From NCBI RefSeq assembly GCF_900182605.1, contig NZ_FXTB01000011.1, forward strand, positions 62,001 to 126,000: DNA of 64,000 nucleotides, written 5' to 3'. The notes below the pieces were generated by a model. It was not told the DNA's origin and searched no databases. It saw only the letters and a program-made list of their open reading frames with translations. Source of the DNA: Saccharicrinis carchari. Lineage in GTDB: Bacteria > Bacteroidota > Bacteroidia > Bacteroidales > Marinilabiliaceae. Positions 47,088 to 55,832 of this stretch are shown here, one piece after another. Numbering within the stretch: the stretch's first letter is position 1; each line of letters begins with the position of its first letter. A program made the translations under genes and the position numbers.

Positions 47088-48119
47088 TTAAATTTCGCAG
47101 ACAACTTCAAAAAAAACTCTTGGCAAAGATTCCAAATACTCATTAAATGCAGTGTTTTCTACAGGTAGAAACTTCTTAAAGGTAGCTGACTTTGATCCGC
47201 AAATGTTGGCATATATCCCAATACTGCTTGCTATATGGTAAAAGCACACATTTTTTTTAAAAGTATAAGCCATGTTTTCCAATGTCTGGTCTCTTTTTAG
47301 GTAAATTACAGTTATTTCATTCGAAAAAGTTTCTAATAACTCTGTAAATGCGTTTTGAGATCCCTCAAACTGATAATGCACTGGATGAAACTTTATATAT
47401 ACTATTGTTTCATTTTTACTAACTAAATATTTGAGTAATTTTTGAAGCGCATACAAATAGTCATCCAATTTTAATAAATTTGCTTGTGCGAAAGCTTCGA
47501 GAACAATTACGCTCAAGCGACTTTTGTCTTTATAATTTGTACATTTCTCGAACGGCAATGTTAATATCTTTTTATTTGCAATATCAGGAAATGCTAGTTC
47601 TGAAATTGCATAAAAATCTTTAAATTTATTATTCCTACATTCATAAAAATCATATATTTTACTTCCCAGCATTGGAAAATTAATCATATAAAAAATATTT
47701 CGCAACCATCCTAACAAATATATTTTTCTAGAAAAAAACGATATATGCAAACTATTTTTTCTTTCAACACTGTGGTAACTAACCATCCCTTCTTCCATAT
47801 AACTGTATGAGTGGCACGATTCCATCCTTGTCAACAGTTGAAATATAGGAAATCCACTAGATGGTATATATAAGTCAAATTGCTTTGAACTTAAAAACGT
47901 TAAAATCCTATTTCTTAGATTATAAACTTTTATCCATGATTTAAATATACATAAAGAAGGTATCAACTCCGGCAGTGAGAATACATTATCAAATTCACTA
48001 ACTATGAATTTTCGTAAAGTAAGTATGTATATATCTTCATTTCTTAATTTATAATCTTTGACAATCTGCTTAGTGATTAATAATGCTATTGGACTATGTA
48101 TAACAAAAACACTTTTCAT
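47088..48119 (-). CDS. Candidate nonulosonate (sialic-acid-type) glycosyltransferase
   Basis: 343 residues, no signal peptide. Three spaced motifs resemble those of the GT52 and GT38 bacterial sialyltransferases: an acidic EEG at 109-111 (YMEEGMVSYH), HP at 245-246 (YIKFHPVHY) and a Ser pair at 298-299 (YHIASSIGIYANI). In those families the D/E-D/E-G and HP motifs hold the general base and CMP-sugar phosphate contact. Overall similarity is weak by eye. Context supports it: neuB and neuA homologues lie upstream in the same operon and no other CMP-sugar transferase is visible. The ATG overlaps the wzx stop by one base. Confidence 0.6.
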   Translation of the reverse strand: MKSVFVIHSPIALLITKQIVKDYKLRNEDIYILTLRKFIVSEFDNVFSLPELIPSLCIFKSWIKVYNLRNRILTFLSSKQFDLYIPSSGFPIFQLLTRMESCHSYSYMEEGMVSYHSVERKNSLHISFFSRKIYLLGWLRNIFYMINFPMLGSKIYDFYECRNNKFKDFYAISELAFPDIANKKILTLPFEKCTNYKDKSRLSVIVLEAFAQANLLKLDDYLYALQKLLKYLVSKNETIVYIKFHPVHYQFEGSQNAFTELLETFSNEITVIYLKRDQTLENMAYTFKKNVCFYHIASSIGIYANICGSKSATFKKFLPVENTAFNEYLESLPRVFFEVVCEI

Positions 48120-49390
48120 TATTGAGAATTTTTCAAGCTTTTCTTAAACAACCATGGCATTGCATAAACACTAGAACTCAAGACCCAAGTCAAAATAAAT
48201 GTTAGAAAATATGAAATCAGTGAAGCTTTTGCAGCACCAACAATTCCTTCGTACTGAATACCAAAGTATACAAATGCTAAATGTATTAAACCCGTTGTAA
48301 GTGTAATTTTTGCTAGTAACTTTGTTTTATTGGCGTAAAATATATAATTAACAACCATTAAATACATACCATGAAAAGCAGCTGCAAAAGCAAAATATGG
48401 AATTAAATCTAATGCTTCAACATATTTTTCCGTTGCTATGATTTTCAAAATATATTTTGAAAATAAAGACACAAAAGTTGCCAATACCATAATAAGTCCA
48501 AAATAAACATATGTATACTTCACAAGCGCTACCTTATTTTCAGTTGATATATTGAGCAATTTCCTATATAAAAATGGTTGGTACGCTTGATTAATTGCCA
48601 TTGCTAACATTGAAATTCCAAAACCTATTTGATATCCTGCAGAGTATATCCCAACAGCAGAAGCTGTTAAAAGCTTCATTATGACTATCCGATCCACCCC
48701 ATTTCGTAACCAAAAACTTAGTTGGTGTGGAATCAGTGGAAAACCAAAGTTAAAGGCCTCTTTAAAATATGCATAATTAAAAACATAGTTAACATACTTA
48801 TTTTTAATCAGAAAAAAAATTGAATAGCAACCAAAAAAAGAAGTAGCTAGAATAATCCCAATAAAACGTCCTTCATGGTTATAGAAAAAAACTGTAATTA
48901 AAACCAGAGATATCACAATTTCTAAAATCATGTTTGAAACTTGGAGAACACCATATTTTATCGCCTTATTTTCCATTTTCAATACTCCTGTAACTATAAC
49001 ATAAAATTGCTTGAAAAAAGCGATAAAAAAACCTATAAAGACCCAAACTACATCAATTGCAAGTAATTTAGCTATTACATTCTTAAATGCAATTAGCACT
49101 ATTAAAACTACACAAGAAGATATAATAAATAAAACGATAGATGATGAGATAAACGCAGATAAGTCATACTTACTTAACTTATAAAAGTTGACGTTTATTA
49201 CACCTTGCACACTGAGTCCAGAAAATATTAACATAACAAAAATATATGTTGTATAAAGAGATAGTATGCCATATTCATCAGGAGTTAAATACCTAGTCAG
49301 AATGGGTAATAAAATAAAAGGAATTCCTTTATTGAAGAATTCCGTTAACATATAAACAAATGAATCTTTAAATAATCTATTGATTTTCAT
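48119..49390 (-). CDS. Wzx-type flippase (polysaccharide biosynthesis protein)
   Basis: 423 residues with about twelve membrane helices. MATE/MVF-superfamily oligosaccharide translocase: starts FKDSFVYMLTEFFNKGIPFILLPILTRYLTPDEYG, a pattern typical of Wzx/RfbX, and ends with a Lys-rich tail. Should flip the undecaprenyl-linked repeat unit across the inner membrane. Three nucleotides after the 526-residue gene. Confidence 0.88.
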   Translation of the reverse strand: MKINRLFKDSFVYMLTEFFNKGIPFILLPILTRYLTPDEYGILSLYTTYIFVMLIFSGLSVQGVINVNFYKLSKYDLSAFISSSIVLFIISSCVVLIVLIAFKNVIAKLLAIDVVWVFIGFFIAFFKQFYVIVTGVLKMENKAIKYGVLQVSNMILEIVISLVLITVFFYNHEGRFIGIILATSFFGCYSIFFLIKNKYVNYVFNYAYFKEAFNFGFPLIPHQLSFWLRNGVDRIVIMKLLTASAVGIYSAGYQIGFGISMLAMAINQAYQPFLYRKLLNISTENKVALVKYTYVYFGLIMVLATFVSLFSKYILKIIATEKYVEALDLIPYFAFAAAFHGMYLMVVNYIFYANKTKLLAKITLTTGLIHLAFVYFGIQYEGIVGAAKASLISYFLTFILTWVLSSSVYAMPWLFKKSLKNSQ

Positions 49391-49393
49391 AGA

Positions 49394-50974
49394 TTATTCA
49401 TTACAAAATTCACTATACATAGTTATCACATTTTCCATCTCATCTGTATGAGCATAATTATCCCCAATATGAATTGCAATATCATAGATATAATTTGGTA
49501 TTCTTGTTTTATATTTTGCTCGAATTGCTCTCTTTATTTCTTCAACCTGTTGAGATATAGGTCTATTATTTGAAGCCTTTCGTCTAAAATTAGGTTCAGA
49601 AATAAAAACTCTTAGGATGCCAATCTCGCAATTATAATTATTCATTGCATTCAGTTTCTTTTTAATCTTCCAATCTTCAATATCATCACAAGCATAAATT
49701 TTAGATACGAACTCCTCAAAATAATCTTTCTTTAAATTCATTCTTTTAAAACTTAAAACTCCATTCGACTTTTGAATATCAGAAATAATCTCCGAAAAAA
49801 ACTCCATTACAGGCGGCCAAATAATAAATGTAAAGTAACATTTACTATCTTGAATTACCATTTCCACTCTTTTATTAATTAAATTAATTTCGTGCTCACT
49901 AAAGCCATTACTTTTAAACCAATTAATATCATACACTGCCTCATTTTCTTTTTTATCAAAATAATTCCTATTGGCAATATTAACACTGACAAATTGTTCC
50001 TTGAAGTAAATTGCGCATGCAAGTCTATGAGATCCGTCTAAAATACTTCCTTTTCTTGAAATAGGTATTTCTGAATAATTATCAAACCCATTTATTTGAA
50101 TACTATTTATTAATTGGATGAATCTTTCTTTTGCTCCATCATTTAATCCGTCACTCCTAATATGTTGCATTTTATTATATAAATCCCACCCAAAATCATT
50201 TATTTTGTAATAATTTTCAATTGCCAACAGTCGCACAACTGAATCACATCTATTAAACCCATTAATCGTAAATTGTTTAGAAATTAGTTCCCTAACATTC
50301 ATTTTAAAAATGATTTCAGGAAATTTATCTCCCAGCCAAGACTTTCTTCTTAATCCAATATTTTCTAATGAATTTATTAACTTTTCTTTAAGTTTTGGAA
50401 TGGATAGAAAAATTAACGGAAAAAATATAGGAACTCTTAATAAAAATATAATCCTTTTGTATAGTGGTGCCAGTAAATCCAATCTTTTAAACGCATATGC
50501 TTTTTGCCAATTTCGCAATAAATAATACCAATGCTGTTGCTTTTTGGGAAATTGAACTACCTCAGCAATTCTAAAAATTAACTCATTATCGCTAGAAAGA
50601 AAATAAATCCCACCTACACATACTCGACTTTTCATTACGTGTTCTACAAAAGTAGTCGATATGTATTTATTATACGATAAAATGTCAATCTGAAGTACTA
50701 ACTTACCATTTTTCTCAAAACGGACTTTACAATTTCCTTCCTTTCGAATTACATAGTACTCGCCACTTCCCACCTTAATTTTTTCCGCCTCTTTAATGAG
50801 TTTTAATTCATCAGTTTTTAGAACAACAATATCTATATCGTCAAATATATTTTTCCTGAGAATCTCATCCCCTTTTCTAAAGTCTTCTTTAATAACTACA
50901 TAAGCCAAACTTGATATTCTAACGAAAAAACTCCTTAATTCCTGCTCTACGTCTTGCATTTTTGCCATATCCAT
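49394..50974 (-). CDS. Unrecognised three-part protein: nucleotidyltransferase-like, ParB/Srx-like, and unknown C-terminus
   Basis: 526 residues, no whole-length family that I recognise. Residues ~25-160 look like a small nucleotidyltransferase: an Asp pair in FDDIDIV (D46, D48) and a third Asp in LQIDIL (D97). Around 275-335 is a ParB/sulfiredoxin-like segment, KGSILDGSHRLACAIYF, with the D-G-x-H-R box at 313-317. From ~370 to the end is a separate domain with IWPPVMEFF, then YDIAIHIGDNYAHTDEM at 497-513. A short hydrophobic patch (~175-192) may be buried. It lies 1 nt from the neuA-like gene and 3 nt before wzx, so it is translated with the glycan genes. Possible roles are transfer of a nucleotide- or phosphate-linked decoration; not established. 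Confidence 0.75.
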   Translation of the reverse strand: MDMAKMQDVEQELRSFFVRISSLAYVVIKEDFRKGDEILRKNIFDDIDIVVLKTDELKLIKEAEKIKVGSGEYYVIRKEGNCKVRFEKNGKLVLQIDILSYNKYISTTFVEHVMKSRVCVGGIYFLSSDNELIFRIAEVVQFPKKQQHWYYLLRNWQKAYAFKRLDLLAPLYKRIIFLLRVPIFFPLIFLSIPKLKEKLINSLENIGLRRKSWLGDKFPEIIFKMNVRELISKQFTINGFNRCDSVVRLLAIENYYKINDFGWDLYNKMQHIRSDGLNDGAKERFIQLINSIQINGFDNYSEIPISRKGSILDGSHRLACAIYFKEQFVSVNIANRNYFDKKENEAVYDINWFKSNGFSEHEINLINKRVEMVIQDSKCYFTFIIWPPVMEFFSEIISDIQKSNGVLSFKRMNLKKDYFEEFVSKIYACDDIEDWKIKKKLNAMNNYNCEIGILRVFISEPNFRRKASNNRPISQQVEEIKRAIRAKYKTRIPNYIYDIAIHIGDNYAHTDEMENVITMYSEFCNE

Positions 50975-50975
50975 A

Positions 50976-52136
50976 TTACATATATGAATTATCCATTAAA
51001 ATAGATACAAACTCCCTAACAGCTCCTTGTCCACCATTTTTAGAAAGATGAATAATACCCTGCACTTCCTTGATTTTTTTTAATGCATTTTGTGGGCATG
51101 CAGCGTATCCAACCTTAGAGAGCAAATCAAAACAATTAATATCATCCCCAATATAAGCTACTTCATCCAAATCCACACCTATCTCTTTACAAATAGATTG
51201 AGCAGCAGCTAACTTACCATCATGCTCTTTACCCTGATATAGATAATCGACTTTTAATTTTTTTGCTCTTTGTTCTACTATTTTTGTATTCTCAGAGGTA
51301 ATTATCCCTGTTTTGATTCCCACATCCCGTAATAACTTAAACGCCATTCCGTCATGGGTATTAAACTTCTTTAATTCATCACCAGATTCAGAATAGTACA
51401 TTCCTGCATCTGTCATAACACCATCCACATCCGATATAAAAAGCTTAATCTTCTTTTTTGTTTTCTTTAGGATATGTTTTTTCATTAGAAATTCAGCAAT
51501 GATCCAATCATCTGGCTCATCAATCTCCGTCATCGTATATTCTGGCATTCGATATATTTCAATCTTACCCGATAAACGATTCCTAGTCTTCAAAATATTA
51601 TTTACGGTATTTACATAAAATGCACCGTTTTCTATATATGTCCCTTTGAAATCTTGCCTTCTAGGTCGATTCTTATAATCATAGTTTAAAGTTTGACCTT
51701 CTATGCTCCAAAAAAAACGTTTTACAAGTGAACCACTAAGTAACGAATCGGAGCCAGACGCTCGCAATTGCTTTATTCCCGATGTAATATCATAGGCTCT
51801 AAGAAATGGAGATGTAGCTTGTATCAGTACAAATTGATCTTTCTTCGCATAACTCGTATGATTTAAATATTCAATTATTACACTCTCTGTTGATGAATAA
51901 TCCTGGGCATTTTCTTTAGATCTTTCATAAACGCGACATTTACTAAATGCAAAACTATCTACAACTAATTTTATTTCAAGACTATCCGTGGCAACAATAA
52001 CTTCATCTATCAAATCAGATTCCTGCGCAGCCCTTACCGTCCAATAAACTAATGGCTTCCCACAGAATTCTTTTATGTTCTTTTTGGGTATGGATTTACT
52101 TCCTCCCCTTACAGGTATAAATGCAATTGTTTTCAT
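50976..52136 (-). CDS. neuA: Nonulosonate cytidylyltransferase fused to KdsC-like phosphatase
   Basis: 386 residues, two domains. Residues 1-~222 are a CMP-sialate synthetase-type cytidylyltransferase: FIPVRGGSKSIPKKNI (7-22), LIQATSPFLR (104-113) and MTEIDEPDDW (202-211). Residues ~229-380 are a HAD type-C0 phosphatase like KdsC: DVDGVMTD with nucleophile D236 and acid D238, ITSEN, and GDDINC at 330-335. The fusion could dephosphorylate a nonulosonate 9-phosphate and activate it with CTP in one protein; HAD activity is not guaranteed, since in vertebrate CMAS the equivalent domain is mainly structural. 16 nt after the synthase gene. Confidence 0.9.
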   Translation of the reverse strand: MKTIAFIPVRGGSKSIPKKNIKEFCGKPLVYWTVRAAQESDLIDEVIVATDSLEIKLVVDSFAFSKCRVYERSKENAQDYSSTESVIIEYLNHTSYAKKDQFVLIQATSPFLRAYDITSGIKQLRASGSDSLLSGSLVKRFFWSIEGQTLNYDYKNRPRRQDFKGTYIENGAFYVNTVNNILKTRNRLSGKIEIYRMPEYTMTEIDEPDDWIIAEFLMKKHILKKTKKKIKLFISDVDGVMTDAGMYYSESGDELKKFNTHDGMAFKLLRDVGIKTGIITSENTKIVEQRAKKLKVDYLYQGKEHDGKLAAAQSICKEIGVDLDEVAYIGDDINCFDLLSKVGYAACPQNALKKIKEVQGIIHLSKNGGQGAVREFVSILMDNSYM

Positions 52137-52152
52137 TTTTAAAATTACTATC

Positions 52153-53025
52153 TTACTTAGCTCTATACTTTAACTTTTCTCTTTGCACCTTTTCAATATC
52201 AAGAATATCTTCTTTCTTAAAAGTCAAGGATTTATGGACTGCACTTAGATTCCTCACTAATCTACGAACTCCTTCAGGTTCCAACGACGCCGCATGATCC
52301 GTACCTTTCCAGGTTCTGTCAAGAGTATAATGTCTTTCAATCCAGGTCGCACCCAATGTGTATGCTGCAATGTCCACTGCTATGCCTAAATGATGACCTG
52401 AAAAGCCAATTTCTTTTACACGGCCTTTATAACTATCGATTAACCTTGTAATTTCTAATAAGGCAACATCTTCAAAAGGCACAGGATATCCCGAGGTGCA
52501 GGCATATAATACTACATCCCTATTTCTGCCTTTCTCTTCAAAAAATCTAATTAAGATATCAATTTCATCTTTACTTGTCATTCCAGAAGATACATGTATC
52601 TCTCCTACATAGTTTTCACATAACCAACCCAACATCTCATAGTTATTATTACAAGCTGATGGGATTTTAATTAAATCGGGTTTTAACGATGCAATTTCTT
52701 TTGCTGAGTCTAAGTCCCATGTTGACGTTGACCATACAATTCCTAATTCTTCAGCATATTGCTTTAATACTTTATTTTGCTCCAAACTAAATTCTAAGAA
52801 CTCTCTATGCTCTCCATAGGTTTCACCATATGAGTTTGCAGGATTTGGATGTGGAGCCTTATACTGTTCTTCTGTCAATAAATTCCGATTATTTCGTTTT
52901 TGAAATTTAACAACATCTGCATTACAAAAAATCTTTGCAACCCTAATTAACTCTTTTGCTATTTCAAGATCGCCTTTATGATTGCAGCCAATTTCAGCTA
53001 TAACTCTTGGTTTTTGATAATTCAT
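52153..53025 (-). CDS. neuB: Nonulosonate synthase (NeuB family) lacking a SAF domain
   Basis: 290 residues. TIM-barrel condensing phosphoenolpyruvate with a mannose-type sugar: AEIGCNHKGDLEIAK (E11), KFQKRN, IKIPSACNN, VSSGM (145-149), GFSGHHLGI and ERHYTLDRTWKGTDHAAS (230-247). Typical NeuB is about 345 residues with a C-terminal antifreeze-like SAF domain; this one stops at about the end of the barrel, and the stop codon is followed directly by neuA, so no broken SAF is visible. With a phosphatase fused to the next enzyme, the acceptor may be a 6-phosphate sugar. Confidence 0.88.
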   Translation of the reverse strand: MNYQKPRVIAEIGCNHKGDLEIAKELIRVAKIFCNADVVKFQKRNNRNLLTEEQYKAPHPNPANSYGETYGEHREFLEFSLEQNKVLKQYAEELGIVWSTSTWDLDSAKEIASLKPDLIKIPSACNNNYEMLGWLCENYVGEIHVSSGMTSKDEIDILIRFFEEKGRNRDVVLYACTSGYPVPFEDVALLEITRLIDSYKGRVKEIGFSGHHLGIAVDIAAYTLGATWIERHYTLDRTWKGTDHAASLEPEGVRRLVRNLSAVHKSLTFKKEDILDIEKVQREKLKYRAK

Positions 53026-54429: not shown

Positions 54430-55791
54430 TTAAACCACTACCCAAGTCCCGCCTTTATCCGGCCCTATCCTTTTTATTACATTTTGGCTTCTTAACCGAT
54501 CGAGATCCCTAAGAATCGTCCTGCGAGTAACGCCTGTACGTCCTGCCAATTCATCCACTGTGATCAATGCGTTCTTAGCAATAGAAGCAACAATTAAACG
54601 GTGCCTGTCGTTACTGACATTTTCAGTGACATTTTCAGTGACATTTTCAGTGACATTTTCAGTGACATTTTCAGAAAACACAGTCACCATAAAACCGTCG
54701 GAGATATTCCTAAATTCCGGAACAGGTAGGTTAACGCCTCTAAAATAATTAAGGATACGCTTAATACCGGAACCATATTTTTCAATCAGGCCCATATCCT
54801 TACTAAAGTCAGCTAAAACTTTATTACGCGGTGTTGAACGGTAATTATTGCTCAACAAATCCTCAACCGAAATCGTATCCGGTAATCGTCCGGGATTGTA
54901 GAACTCAATGCGCTCATTAAAAATTTTAACAATCGAATCTGAACTTGACCGGTAGTCCCTATGTAGGATCATGTTAATGACAACCTCCCGGATTGCTTCC
55001 AAGGGGTATTGCCATTTTTGAATATTTTTCGCCTCTCCGGTAATAATTACCTCTTTGTTAATATGCTTCCGAACAAAATCGATAACAACATCAACTTGAG
55101 TCAGAATATCTGATTTTGAGCGGACTGAATCCTTAATAGTTATCTCATCCTGAAAACGACCTAATTCAATGGTGGTATTAACCGAATCTTTTTCTTTAAA
55201 TAATAAATAAGCGGCATTTGTTAATTTATTATCACGGATTAAATCATATTTCATAAGGAAGGCCAAAGGATCTTCGTGTATAGAAAGCTGATTCTGCTTC
55301 ATGACCTCGATAGCCCTTTGTACTTTTTCAAGTGAAATATCATCGATGACATGCAAGGGATCGGGGAAAGAATCCCAACTCATATTAATCGACTTCAAAT
55401 GTAAATCTACCACTTCAGATACCAATAAGGGATGATTGGAATTTTGTATTCGCTTATAATAACGCCCCTTGGTTGACACAGGCTTGACAGGATATTCATC
55501 GCAAGTAATAATCACTAAATTTTTATTATCTACAGAAACAACCTCGACATCAGGGATAAGAACAGGTGCGGTTTTATTCTTCACTTCATTCACCCAATTC
55601 ACGATGGTCTCCTTCCCTAACTGCACTCCAGTTAATTCGCCATTATCAGCAACGCCAACCAACACACTGCCACCTTTGGTATTCGCAAATGCAACCAATG
55701 ACACAATTGTTTCCGTATTGAATGAAGACTTAAATTCGACATGAATTCCTTCACCATTACCAATTATATCAAGAATAGATTGTGCGGTCAT
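54430..55791 (-). CDS. AlbA_2/Schlafen-type regulator with HATPase_c_4 and winged helix
   Basis: 453 residues from the ATG at 55791 (a GTG precedes it). N-terminal AlbA_2 domain (about 1-125): EFKSSFNTETIVSLVAFANTKGG-SVLVGVADNGEL. Middle to C-terminal ATPase-like region (about 260-360): EAIREVVINMILHRDY and EFYNPGRLP. A linker of five NVTE units (about 373-392) leads into a DeoR/HTH_11-type winged helix (VDELAGRTGVTRRTILRDLDRL). Often annotated as RecG-like or transcriptional regulator. It lies alone between two 96-bp direct repeats in the polysaccharide operon, in the same orientation, and could regulate it or be a cargo gene. Confidence 0.88.
   Translation of the reverse strand: MTAQSILDIIGNGEGIHVEFKSSFNTETIVSLVAFANTKGGSVLVGVADNGELTGVQLGKETIVNWVNEVKNKTAPVLIPDVEVVSVDNKNLVIITCDEYPVKPVSTKGRYYKRIQNSNHPLLVSEVVDLHLKSINMSWDSFPDPLHVIDDISLEKVQRAIEVMKQNQLSIHEDPLAFLMKYDLIRDNKLTNAAYLLFKEKDSVNTTIELGRFQDEITIKDSVRSKSDILTQVDVVIDFVRKHINKEVIITGEAKNIQKWQYPLEAIREVVINMILHRDYRSSSDSIVKIFNERIEFYNPGRLPDTISVEDLLSNNYRSTPRNKVLADFSKDMGLIEKYGSGIKRILNYFRGVNLPVPEFRNISDGFMVTVFSENVTENVTENVTENVTENVSNDRHRLIVASIAKNALITVDELAGRTGVTRRTILRDLDRLRSQNVIKRIGPDKGGTWVVV
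54615..54674. repeat. Five tandem copies of a 12-bp unit
   Basis: tgacattttcag repeated five times without a mismatch, inside the AlbA_2 regulator; each copy encodes four residues (NVTE-type, read on the minus strand). Unit length is a multiple of three, so copy change alters linker length without shifting the frame. Confidence 0.95.
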
Positions 55792-55832
55792 CACTTTAAA
55801 GATGTTCTATTAAAAATTGTTTTAATTGTAAA

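Follow-up and report, generated by a model that had tools for sequence, protein, structure and literature searches.

WbdD is said to be a glycan-capping kinase-methyltransferase whose fold is not known to include a nucleotidyltransferase (NTase) or NDK-like part, and sulfiredoxin carries a G-x-H-R-type box together with a catalytic Cys. ORF6 of K. pneumoniae O7, as presented in the available part of its report, is a methyltransferase-kinase-GT2 protein that caps the glycan with methyl-phosphate; its kinase domain is aminoglycoside-kinase-like, and that text describes no NTase or NDK-like part (PMC11231755). The LicD family has an NTase fold and is described as using CDP conjugates in glycan assembly, and the accessible portion of the same paper describes no ParB or NDK-like domains for LicD or CpsC (PMC11666461). 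The ParB fold has been introduced as a versatile NTP-binding module in a survey that took PF02195 as its query (PMC12704722), and SerK, a protein annotated as ParB, is summarized as a kinase of free serine (PMC5120207).

Here we compare these systems with W, a protein encoded in a glycan locus of Saccharicrinis carchari. Judged by its sequence, W does not stand alone: it belongs, as a divergent member with rearranged domains, to a widespread module family. As in O7 ORF6, to the extent that its report describes it (PMC11231755), a phosphotransfer module, putative here, is joined in this family to glycosyltransferases (GTs) or methyltransferases in glycan assembly, and fusions of the module to FkbM domains (L003, L080, and L098) parallel the glycan-capping kinase-methyltransferases. 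With LicD and CpsC, as outlined in the text available (PMC11666461), the family shares the character of NTase-superfamily proteins of glycan assembly, but PF04991 is matched in Pfam by neither W nor the canonical members scanned. A G-x-H-R box and a weak profile match in the right register give the family a tentative likeness to the ParB/sulfiredoxin fold, from which it differs in that no Pfam model, PF02195 included, reaches the ParB-like part of W or of the canonical members scanned, no HTH part is seen, and Ser, Ala, or Gly stands at the position of the sulfiredoxin Cys. The likeness to NDKs (PF00334) lies in the fold of the C-terminal model of W and in three residues that stand in register: a His, the Asp after it, and the IR-element Arg; the family differs from NDKs in having no Pfam match, in carrying Trp or Phe for the Lys of K-P-D, in the loss of an Asn, and in its fusion to other domains.

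The gene and its neighbors

The window, by which we mean the whole stretch of 64,000 nucleotides that was analyzed, contains the following features.

49394-50974, minus strand: W, whole gene (NTase-like / ParB-Srx-like / NDK-like), encoding a 526-aa protein
50360-50974, minus strand: putative NTase domain, W residues 1-205 (D46-x-D48 ... D97), assigned by motif
49841-50332, minus strand: ParB/Srx-like domain, W residues 215-378 (limits by eye), assigned by a match to the canonical profile
50024-50038, minus strand: D313-G-S-H-R317 box (H316, R317), seen in the sequence and recurring in relatives
49397-49840, minus strand: NDK-like domain, W residues 379-526, assigned by PDB Foldseek of the model and by the canonical profile
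49436-49474, minus strand: I501-HIGDNYAHTDE-M513, with H502/D505 where, in the hhalign register of the family with 22 NDKs, an NDK has its catalytic His and the Asp after it
50976-52136, minus strand: NeuA-like cytidylyltransferase fused to a KdsC/KDN-9-phosphatase-like HAD domain (Pfam, NCBIfam)
52153-53025, minus strand: NeuB-family synthase (Pfam, NCBIfam)
48119-49390, minus strand: Wzx-like flippase gene, directly downstream of W (Pfam)

W is one uninterrupted ORF of 526 codons with an ATG start, separated by 1 nt (50975) from the NeuA/HAD gene and by 3 nt (49391-49393) from wzx. These spacings agree with an earlier note on this DNA, and the residues that the note took for catalytic sites (D46/D48/D97, DGSHR at 313-317, and the motif at 501-513) are present where it placed them. 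Further genes nearby resemble rml and glycosyltransferase genes (named by eye only). The best NCBIfam match of the HAD domain encoded at 50976-52136 is KDN-9-phosphate phosphatase (172.1 bits; cut-off 180); the locus may make a nonulosonate of the KDN type. The NeuB-family protein (52153-53025) is only 290 aa long, and in Pfam it shows the NeuB domain without a C-terminal SAF/antifreeze-like domain. A 343-aa protein encoded at 47088-48119 on the minus strand has no Pfam or NCBIfam family above threshold and gives, by eye, the impression of a GT-B protein of polysialyltransferase-like type, and a 454-aa protein encoded at 54430-55794 on the minus strand has a T-E-N-V repeat run close to its C-terminus.

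The picture of W as a multi-domain, unannotated protein in a glycan locus was borne out. In library searches, no family in Pfam, NCBIfam, or PHROG scored above threshold, and the whole protein found nothing in Pfam at E 1. Below threshold, the first 200 residues alone matched DUF5128 in Pfam (residues 40-97, E 0.0068, 16.1 bits; cut-off 22.9), the PHROGs yielded two matches (E 0.065 and 0.091), and NCBIfam yielded VC1380_fam (E 0.007, 16.5 bits; cut-off 100). VC1380 is, according to the part of the paper available, a 116-aa protein of unknown function (PMC8789113). PDB sequences matched by W were those of dynein light chains, at residues 7-100 (E 0.0038) and 15-100 (E 0.033), and of a designed binder (E 0.043).

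W is the single match in its own genome, and none of 60 related genomes had a match at E 0.001. A sample of 395 genomes from the phylum contained related proteins in G284 (E 5.8e-11) and G350 (E 3.5e-4); ten of the other matches in this sample, at E 0.006 and above, were examined (L006-L008, L011-L016, and L020) and looked unrelated. A profile search of 390 genomes recovered only these two genomes and G000, the window's own genome.

The ParB-NDK-NTase family

The family was first traced through G284 and G350 together with plasmid genes of Ilyobacter, Paracoccus, and Jannaschia. Alignment gave a recurring order: a ParB/Srx-like part (G-x-H-R), an NDK-like part (H-I-[NT]-D-T), and an NTase part (D-x-D). 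A scan of IMG/VR for this module found 55 loci on metagenomic viral contigs, of which 41 were read by eye or script and the other 14 enter only the count of 100 loci given below. A scan of genome contigs gave 69 pattern matches, and 20 of these were confirmed with W itself; we take them to belong to Campylobacterota, Alpha- and Gammaproteobacteria, Bacteroidota, Planctomycetota, Clostridia, Gracilibacteria, and Deltaproteobacteria. The ParB-NDK-NTase order was present in 94 of the 100 loci fetched, duplicates included. The other six were L086 (with a second NTase behind the module), L093 (with no NTase), L076 (cut by the end of its contig), and three ParB-like-only proteins. The domain order of W was found in none of the 100.

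Short proteins at L078:5968-6450 and L079:259-819 consist of the ParB/Srx-like part alone and have no Pfam family above threshold. At the other extreme of length, L080, L092, L003, and L098 encode fusions of the module with GT10-like, GT2, GT1, TPR, or FkbM methyltransferase domains, the longest of these frames having 2617 residues.

Scans of canonical proteins turned up no model in Pfam, NCBIfam, or PHROG that scored above threshold over the module itself. A full-length match to a characterized family, which the earlier note named as the finding that would count against it, was seen in none of the libraries searched. A model of one canonical member (pLDDT 92.6, pTM 0.88) matched giant-virus proteins in a BFVD fold search (LCMiAC01, Yasminevirus, and Catovirus; E 3e-15 to 2e-12), two of which bear the name glycosyltransferase. 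So far as the domain folds can be named, they are familiar ones; in the libraries searched, both their combination and the family appear to be undescribed, and none of the titles and abstract openings listed in literature searches points to a ParB-NDK-NTase module.

Residue counts were taken from two alignments. From 62 module frames, five that were without one of two motif patterns (GxHR, HIxD) were dropped, leaving 57; alignment A4 consists of 45 of these plus W (46 rows), and alignment A5 of 43 canonical rows. L024 and apparent near-duplicates were omitted from the alignments, and A5 also omits L086 and L093, which are without a canonical NTase; the motif counts are biased by the rows left out.

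Profile comparison shows that the middle part of W is homologous to the family: a canonical profile of the ParB-like region, built without W, matched W residues 282-364 at E 2.8e-18, and the best shuffle listed of 3,000 scored E 6.4e-6. G314 is found in 44 of the 46 rows of A4 and H316 and R317 in all 46, although the counts for the G-x-H-R and H-I-x-D residues are partly by construction, because GxHR and HIxD had served to select the rows. Three members that failed this filter (L031, L050, and L071) still carry G-x-H-R and HI-x-D. R242, D244, Y266, Y427, W435, K487, and R491 of W are each found in 46/46 rows. The importance that the earlier note attached to the DGSHR box and the C-terminal motif finds support in the recurrence of G-x-H-R and H-I-x-D as family residues. 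The assignment of the middle part to the ParB/Srx fold is a weak one. When the region was aligned with ParB by hhalign, the match was in the expected register at E 0.02-0.06, but 3 of 200 decoys did equally well, and the score was 15.9 against ParB versus 17.6 against unrelated NDKs; the BFVD matches of the canonical model include phage ParB/Srx folds at E 0.016 or weaker.

Of the residues that never vary across the 43 canonical rows, W is without six (E79, K86, G240, T291, N304, and N306 in the numbering of L089), and a seventh, K47 of L089, is Arg in W. These changes suggest that W may differ from the canonical members in substrate or activity.

The C-terminus, which had been described as novel, looks like an NDK fold in the model of W, and the canonical model is silent on this point. 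In the AlphaFold model of W (mean pLDDT 62.8), much of the ParB-like part is good, the NDK-like part is moderate (block means 41-86), and most of the first 190 residues are poor. A PDB Foldseek search with this model gave 420 matches at E 10 or better; 46 of the best 50 are NDKs, NM23-H1 and NME1 included, and the remaining 4 are chains of ciliary complexes with the molecule unnamed. The best match had E 1.7e-3 (prob 1.00, TMt 0.65), and none reached E 0.001. The canonical model, which is better than that of W, also had no PDB match at E 0.001 (best E 0.2), no match named as an NDK was among its best 50 PDB matches listed, and in its BFVD search an NDK-like phage protein ranked 16th (E 0.037).

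The canonical profile of the NDK region matched W residues 383-515 marginally, at E 8.5e-6, with the top domain score of 3,001 but not far above the best shuffles. The NDK-like region of the family aligned with 22 NDKs at E 0.0036 (hhalign) with the histidines in register, and the family profile did better against NDKs than all of 200 column-shuffled decoys; a profile of the 22 NDKs found no match to W. H502 and D505 are each present in 46/46 rows of the pre-filtered A4. Of the 46 rows, 27 have Phe and 18 have Trp at the lysine position of K-P-D (Trp386 in W), and the Asn three residues before the catalytic His of NDKs is not retained. As the His is retained and the K-P-D lysine is lost, the NDK-like part of the family is no ordinary NDK. 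Structure prediction with a fold search, a check that had been proposed for all three segments, was thus informative for the NDK-like C-terminal part but left residues 1-205 poorly modeled.

Canonical and alternative NTases

D46, D48, and D97 form a D-x-D plus a third Asp in the sequence of W, by motif only, and residues 11-62 and 98-191 of the model fall below pLDDT 50. Asp triad and DGxHR residues had both been expected in homologues: DGxHR is retained, whereas nothing in the canonical homologues corresponds in position to the triad, their NTase being at the opposite end of the protein. W itself ends after the NDK-like part, without the C-terminal canonical NTase (D361-x-D363, R424, and D429 of L089), and its profile matches, taken domain by domain, place ParB and then NDK in the usual order with no C-terminal NTase behind them.

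D361, D363, R424, and D429 of the canonical NTase are found in 43/43 rows of A5, which excludes L086 and L093, where some canonical NTase residues are lost. At the positions checked, the canonical NTase of the 51 members aligned is intact apart from L086, L093, L094, and the truncated L021, and apart from one change each at position 410 in L085 and L024. L086 has one Asp of the D-x-D and two other residues changed and one position missing, L093 has no canonical NTase, and L094 retains the D-x-D, but three of its near-invariant positions are altered or absent. The L086 and L094 copies are still recognized by the profile of the canonical NTase. L021 has lost its NDK histidine and also its NTase, and no alternative NTase makes up for the loss.

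A different NTase is fused C-terminally to the module in L086, and the gene immediately upstream of the L093 module is an alternative NTase that is 42% identical to the one in L086. A profile of this alternative NTase (L086, L093, L149, and L150) was scanned over 4,178 frames of 80 sources (the window and L021-L099) and picked out, at E 7.9e-26, the gene that immediately precedes the L094 module. Among the 80 sources, the alternative NTase occurs in L086, L093, and L094 only, and a five-sequence profile scanned over the 100 loci found the same three. The overlap between an altered canonical NTase and the presence of an alternative one has a hypergeometric probability of ~5e-5 without L021 and 2e-4 with it, in a test of which only L094 is independent, because it was framed after L086 and L093 had been seen and both also stand in the profile.

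The N-terminus of W weakly resembles the alternative NTases found in L086, L093, L149/L156, and L150/L155. It ranked third of 2,001 against the alternative-NTase profile and 12th of 5,001 (E > 1) against the five-sequence profile; as these matches are not significant, we do not regard the alternative NTase as a proven homologue of the W N-terminus. The canonical NTase was likewise set aside as a homologue, W being absent from the best matches listed for its profile. A canonical NTase that is lost or altered may nevertheless be replaced rather than dispensed with. On the basis of its motifs and of this pattern, W would be a fourth case of replacement, with the NTase fused N-terminally.

The NTase of L086 found no relatives in plasmids, phages, viral contigs, or 198 genomes. 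A three-row alignment of alternative NTases had no match in viral contigs and matched G311 and G200 among 390 genomes; a weak match in G232 was rejected, its frame looking unrelated. Alternative NTases also occur fused to protein-kinase-like domains, with the kinase-like match above the cut-off in L156 (E 4e-10) and below it in L155 (E 2.5e-5). In L155:4092-6320 (plus strand), a stretch that by eye resembles an NDK (G-I-H-S-S-D; hhalign E 0.048) lies between the NTase and the kinase-like domain, and in L156:1268-9679 (minus strand), the alternative NTase sits inside a 2803-aa protein with kinase-like, TPR, and GT-like parts.

Glycan context and proposed function

Of the 20 genome loci, 13 had neighboring genes that were located. 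The gene immediately upstream of the module is a GT in six loci and a Wzx-like flippase in five, which accounts for 11/11 scanned; the two other located upstream genes are the alternative NTase of L094 and the gene of L087, which lies outside the 11 scanned. Downstream, 5 of the 9 genes scanned (12 located) are GTs, and the other four are an acyltransferase, Wzz, a DeoR regulator, and one gene without a family. A GT2-like domain precedes the module in the same frame in 14 of the 41 viral loci read (near-duplicates included; Pfam-checked in two). The position of W beside wzx fits this glycan-assembly context.

The reading that we favor, and which we put forward tentatively, is that W belongs to an undescribed glycan-assembly family combining NTase, ParB/Srx-like, and NDK-like parts, and that it transfers a phosphate-bearing substituent before export. 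The ParB/Srx-like domain would bind NTP and act as a phosphotransferase, the NDK-like domain would present H502 for phosphate or nucleotide handling, and the NTase domain would complete a phosphodiester or nucleotidyl transfer. The acceptor would be a cytoplasmic one, either the lipid-linked repeat unit or the nonulosonate residue within it, and the adjacent Wzx would flip the unit after the substituent had been added. The ParB-NDK pair would need an NTase, and in W the N-terminal NTase would replace the missing canonical one. It is the precedents of ParB, SerK, LicD, the kinase fusions, and O7 that lead us to think that a cytoplasmic glycan intermediate receives a phosphate-containing group from the module; addition of such a group to the glycan unit before Wzx export is, by this analogy, our best guess. 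Several findings speak against it: the N-terminal stretch of W has no significant NTase profile match, and its best PDB sequence match is a dynein light chain (E 0.0038); seven residues invariant in the canonical rows are lost or changed in W; the NDK lysine and Asn are not retained; the profile of 22 NDKs does not find W, and the canonical model has no NDK named among its listed PDB matches; the tie of the middle domain to ParB is weak; and L021 has no substitute for its lost NTase.

The conservation of the NTase bears directly on a different proposal, namely that the ParB/Srx-like and NDK-like parts bind nucleotides without any glycan chemistry and that the protein is a nucleotide-sensing regulator of chain length, GT activity, or Wzx coupling. 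Such a regulator could well have lost the active-site Lys and Asn of NDKs, the GT fusions and the adjacency to flippases and GTs would suit it equally, and the ParB fold is described, in the part of the survey available, as working as a nucleotide switch (PMC12704722). It would not be expected to keep D361, D363, R424, and D429 in every row of A5 (L086 and L093 standing outside that alignment), and wherever an alternative NTase is supplied, the canonical one is missing or changed, which points to catalysis. We therefore consider a regulatory role unlikely.

The genes beside W invite a second proposal, in which W acts on the nonulosonate itself, for example by modifying or activating the sugar made by the neighboring NeuB and NeuA/HAD proteins. 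W lies 1 nt from the NeuA/HAD gene and one gene from NeuB, and on the L056 viral contig (5953-10455) a canonical module is followed by GT29-like, NeuA-like, RraA-like, and NeuB-like genes. A survey of co-occurrence with NeuB/NeuA pairs, which the earlier note had suggested, did not extend this link: NeuA/NeuB relatives at E 1e-5 were found in the stored flanks of only 1 of 78 loci (L021, L022, and L024-L099), that one being L056. A nonulosonate neighborhood is therefore not a family trait, and with L056 as the sole case we regard direct action on the nonulosonate as improbable.

We give the same low standing to the possibility that W is a decayed relative without the activity of the family. 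The seven family-invariant residues that are changed or lost, the absence of the canonical NTase, and a domain order seen in none of the 100 loci would all be explained by decay; yet the 526-codon frame is intact and tightly packed between its neighbors, and the motif histidines and arginine are retained. NTase and ParB-like domains are known from conflict systems and the module is common in viral contigs, but, with glycan assembly as the context of the family, it is very improbable that W is a conflict protein (a toxin-antitoxin or phage-defense nucleotidyltransferase) placed in a polysaccharide locus by chance.

The favored reading, transfer of a phosphate-bearing substituent before export, can be carried further, to a proposal that is possible but doubtful: that the module defines an undescribed glycan-decorating class in bacteria, phages, and (by fold) giant viruses, with a ParB/Srx-like phosphotransferase, a phospho-His relay in the NDK-like domain, an exchangeable NTase, and a new phosphodiester or nucleotidyl substituent as its product. 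The NTase of such a class would have been displaced repeatedly by an unrelated NTase, as a gene pair, a C-terminal fusion, and an N-terminal fusion. If this were true, it would put a name to a missing enzyme class, invisible to current family libraries, behind bacterial and viral glycan decorations, and would bring the ParB/Srx and NDK folds into the chemistry of surface sugars. NTase exchange offers a sign, open to testing, that the three domains work together on a single task, and W is no longer a lone oddity but part of a family with stand-alone relatives that are open to study.
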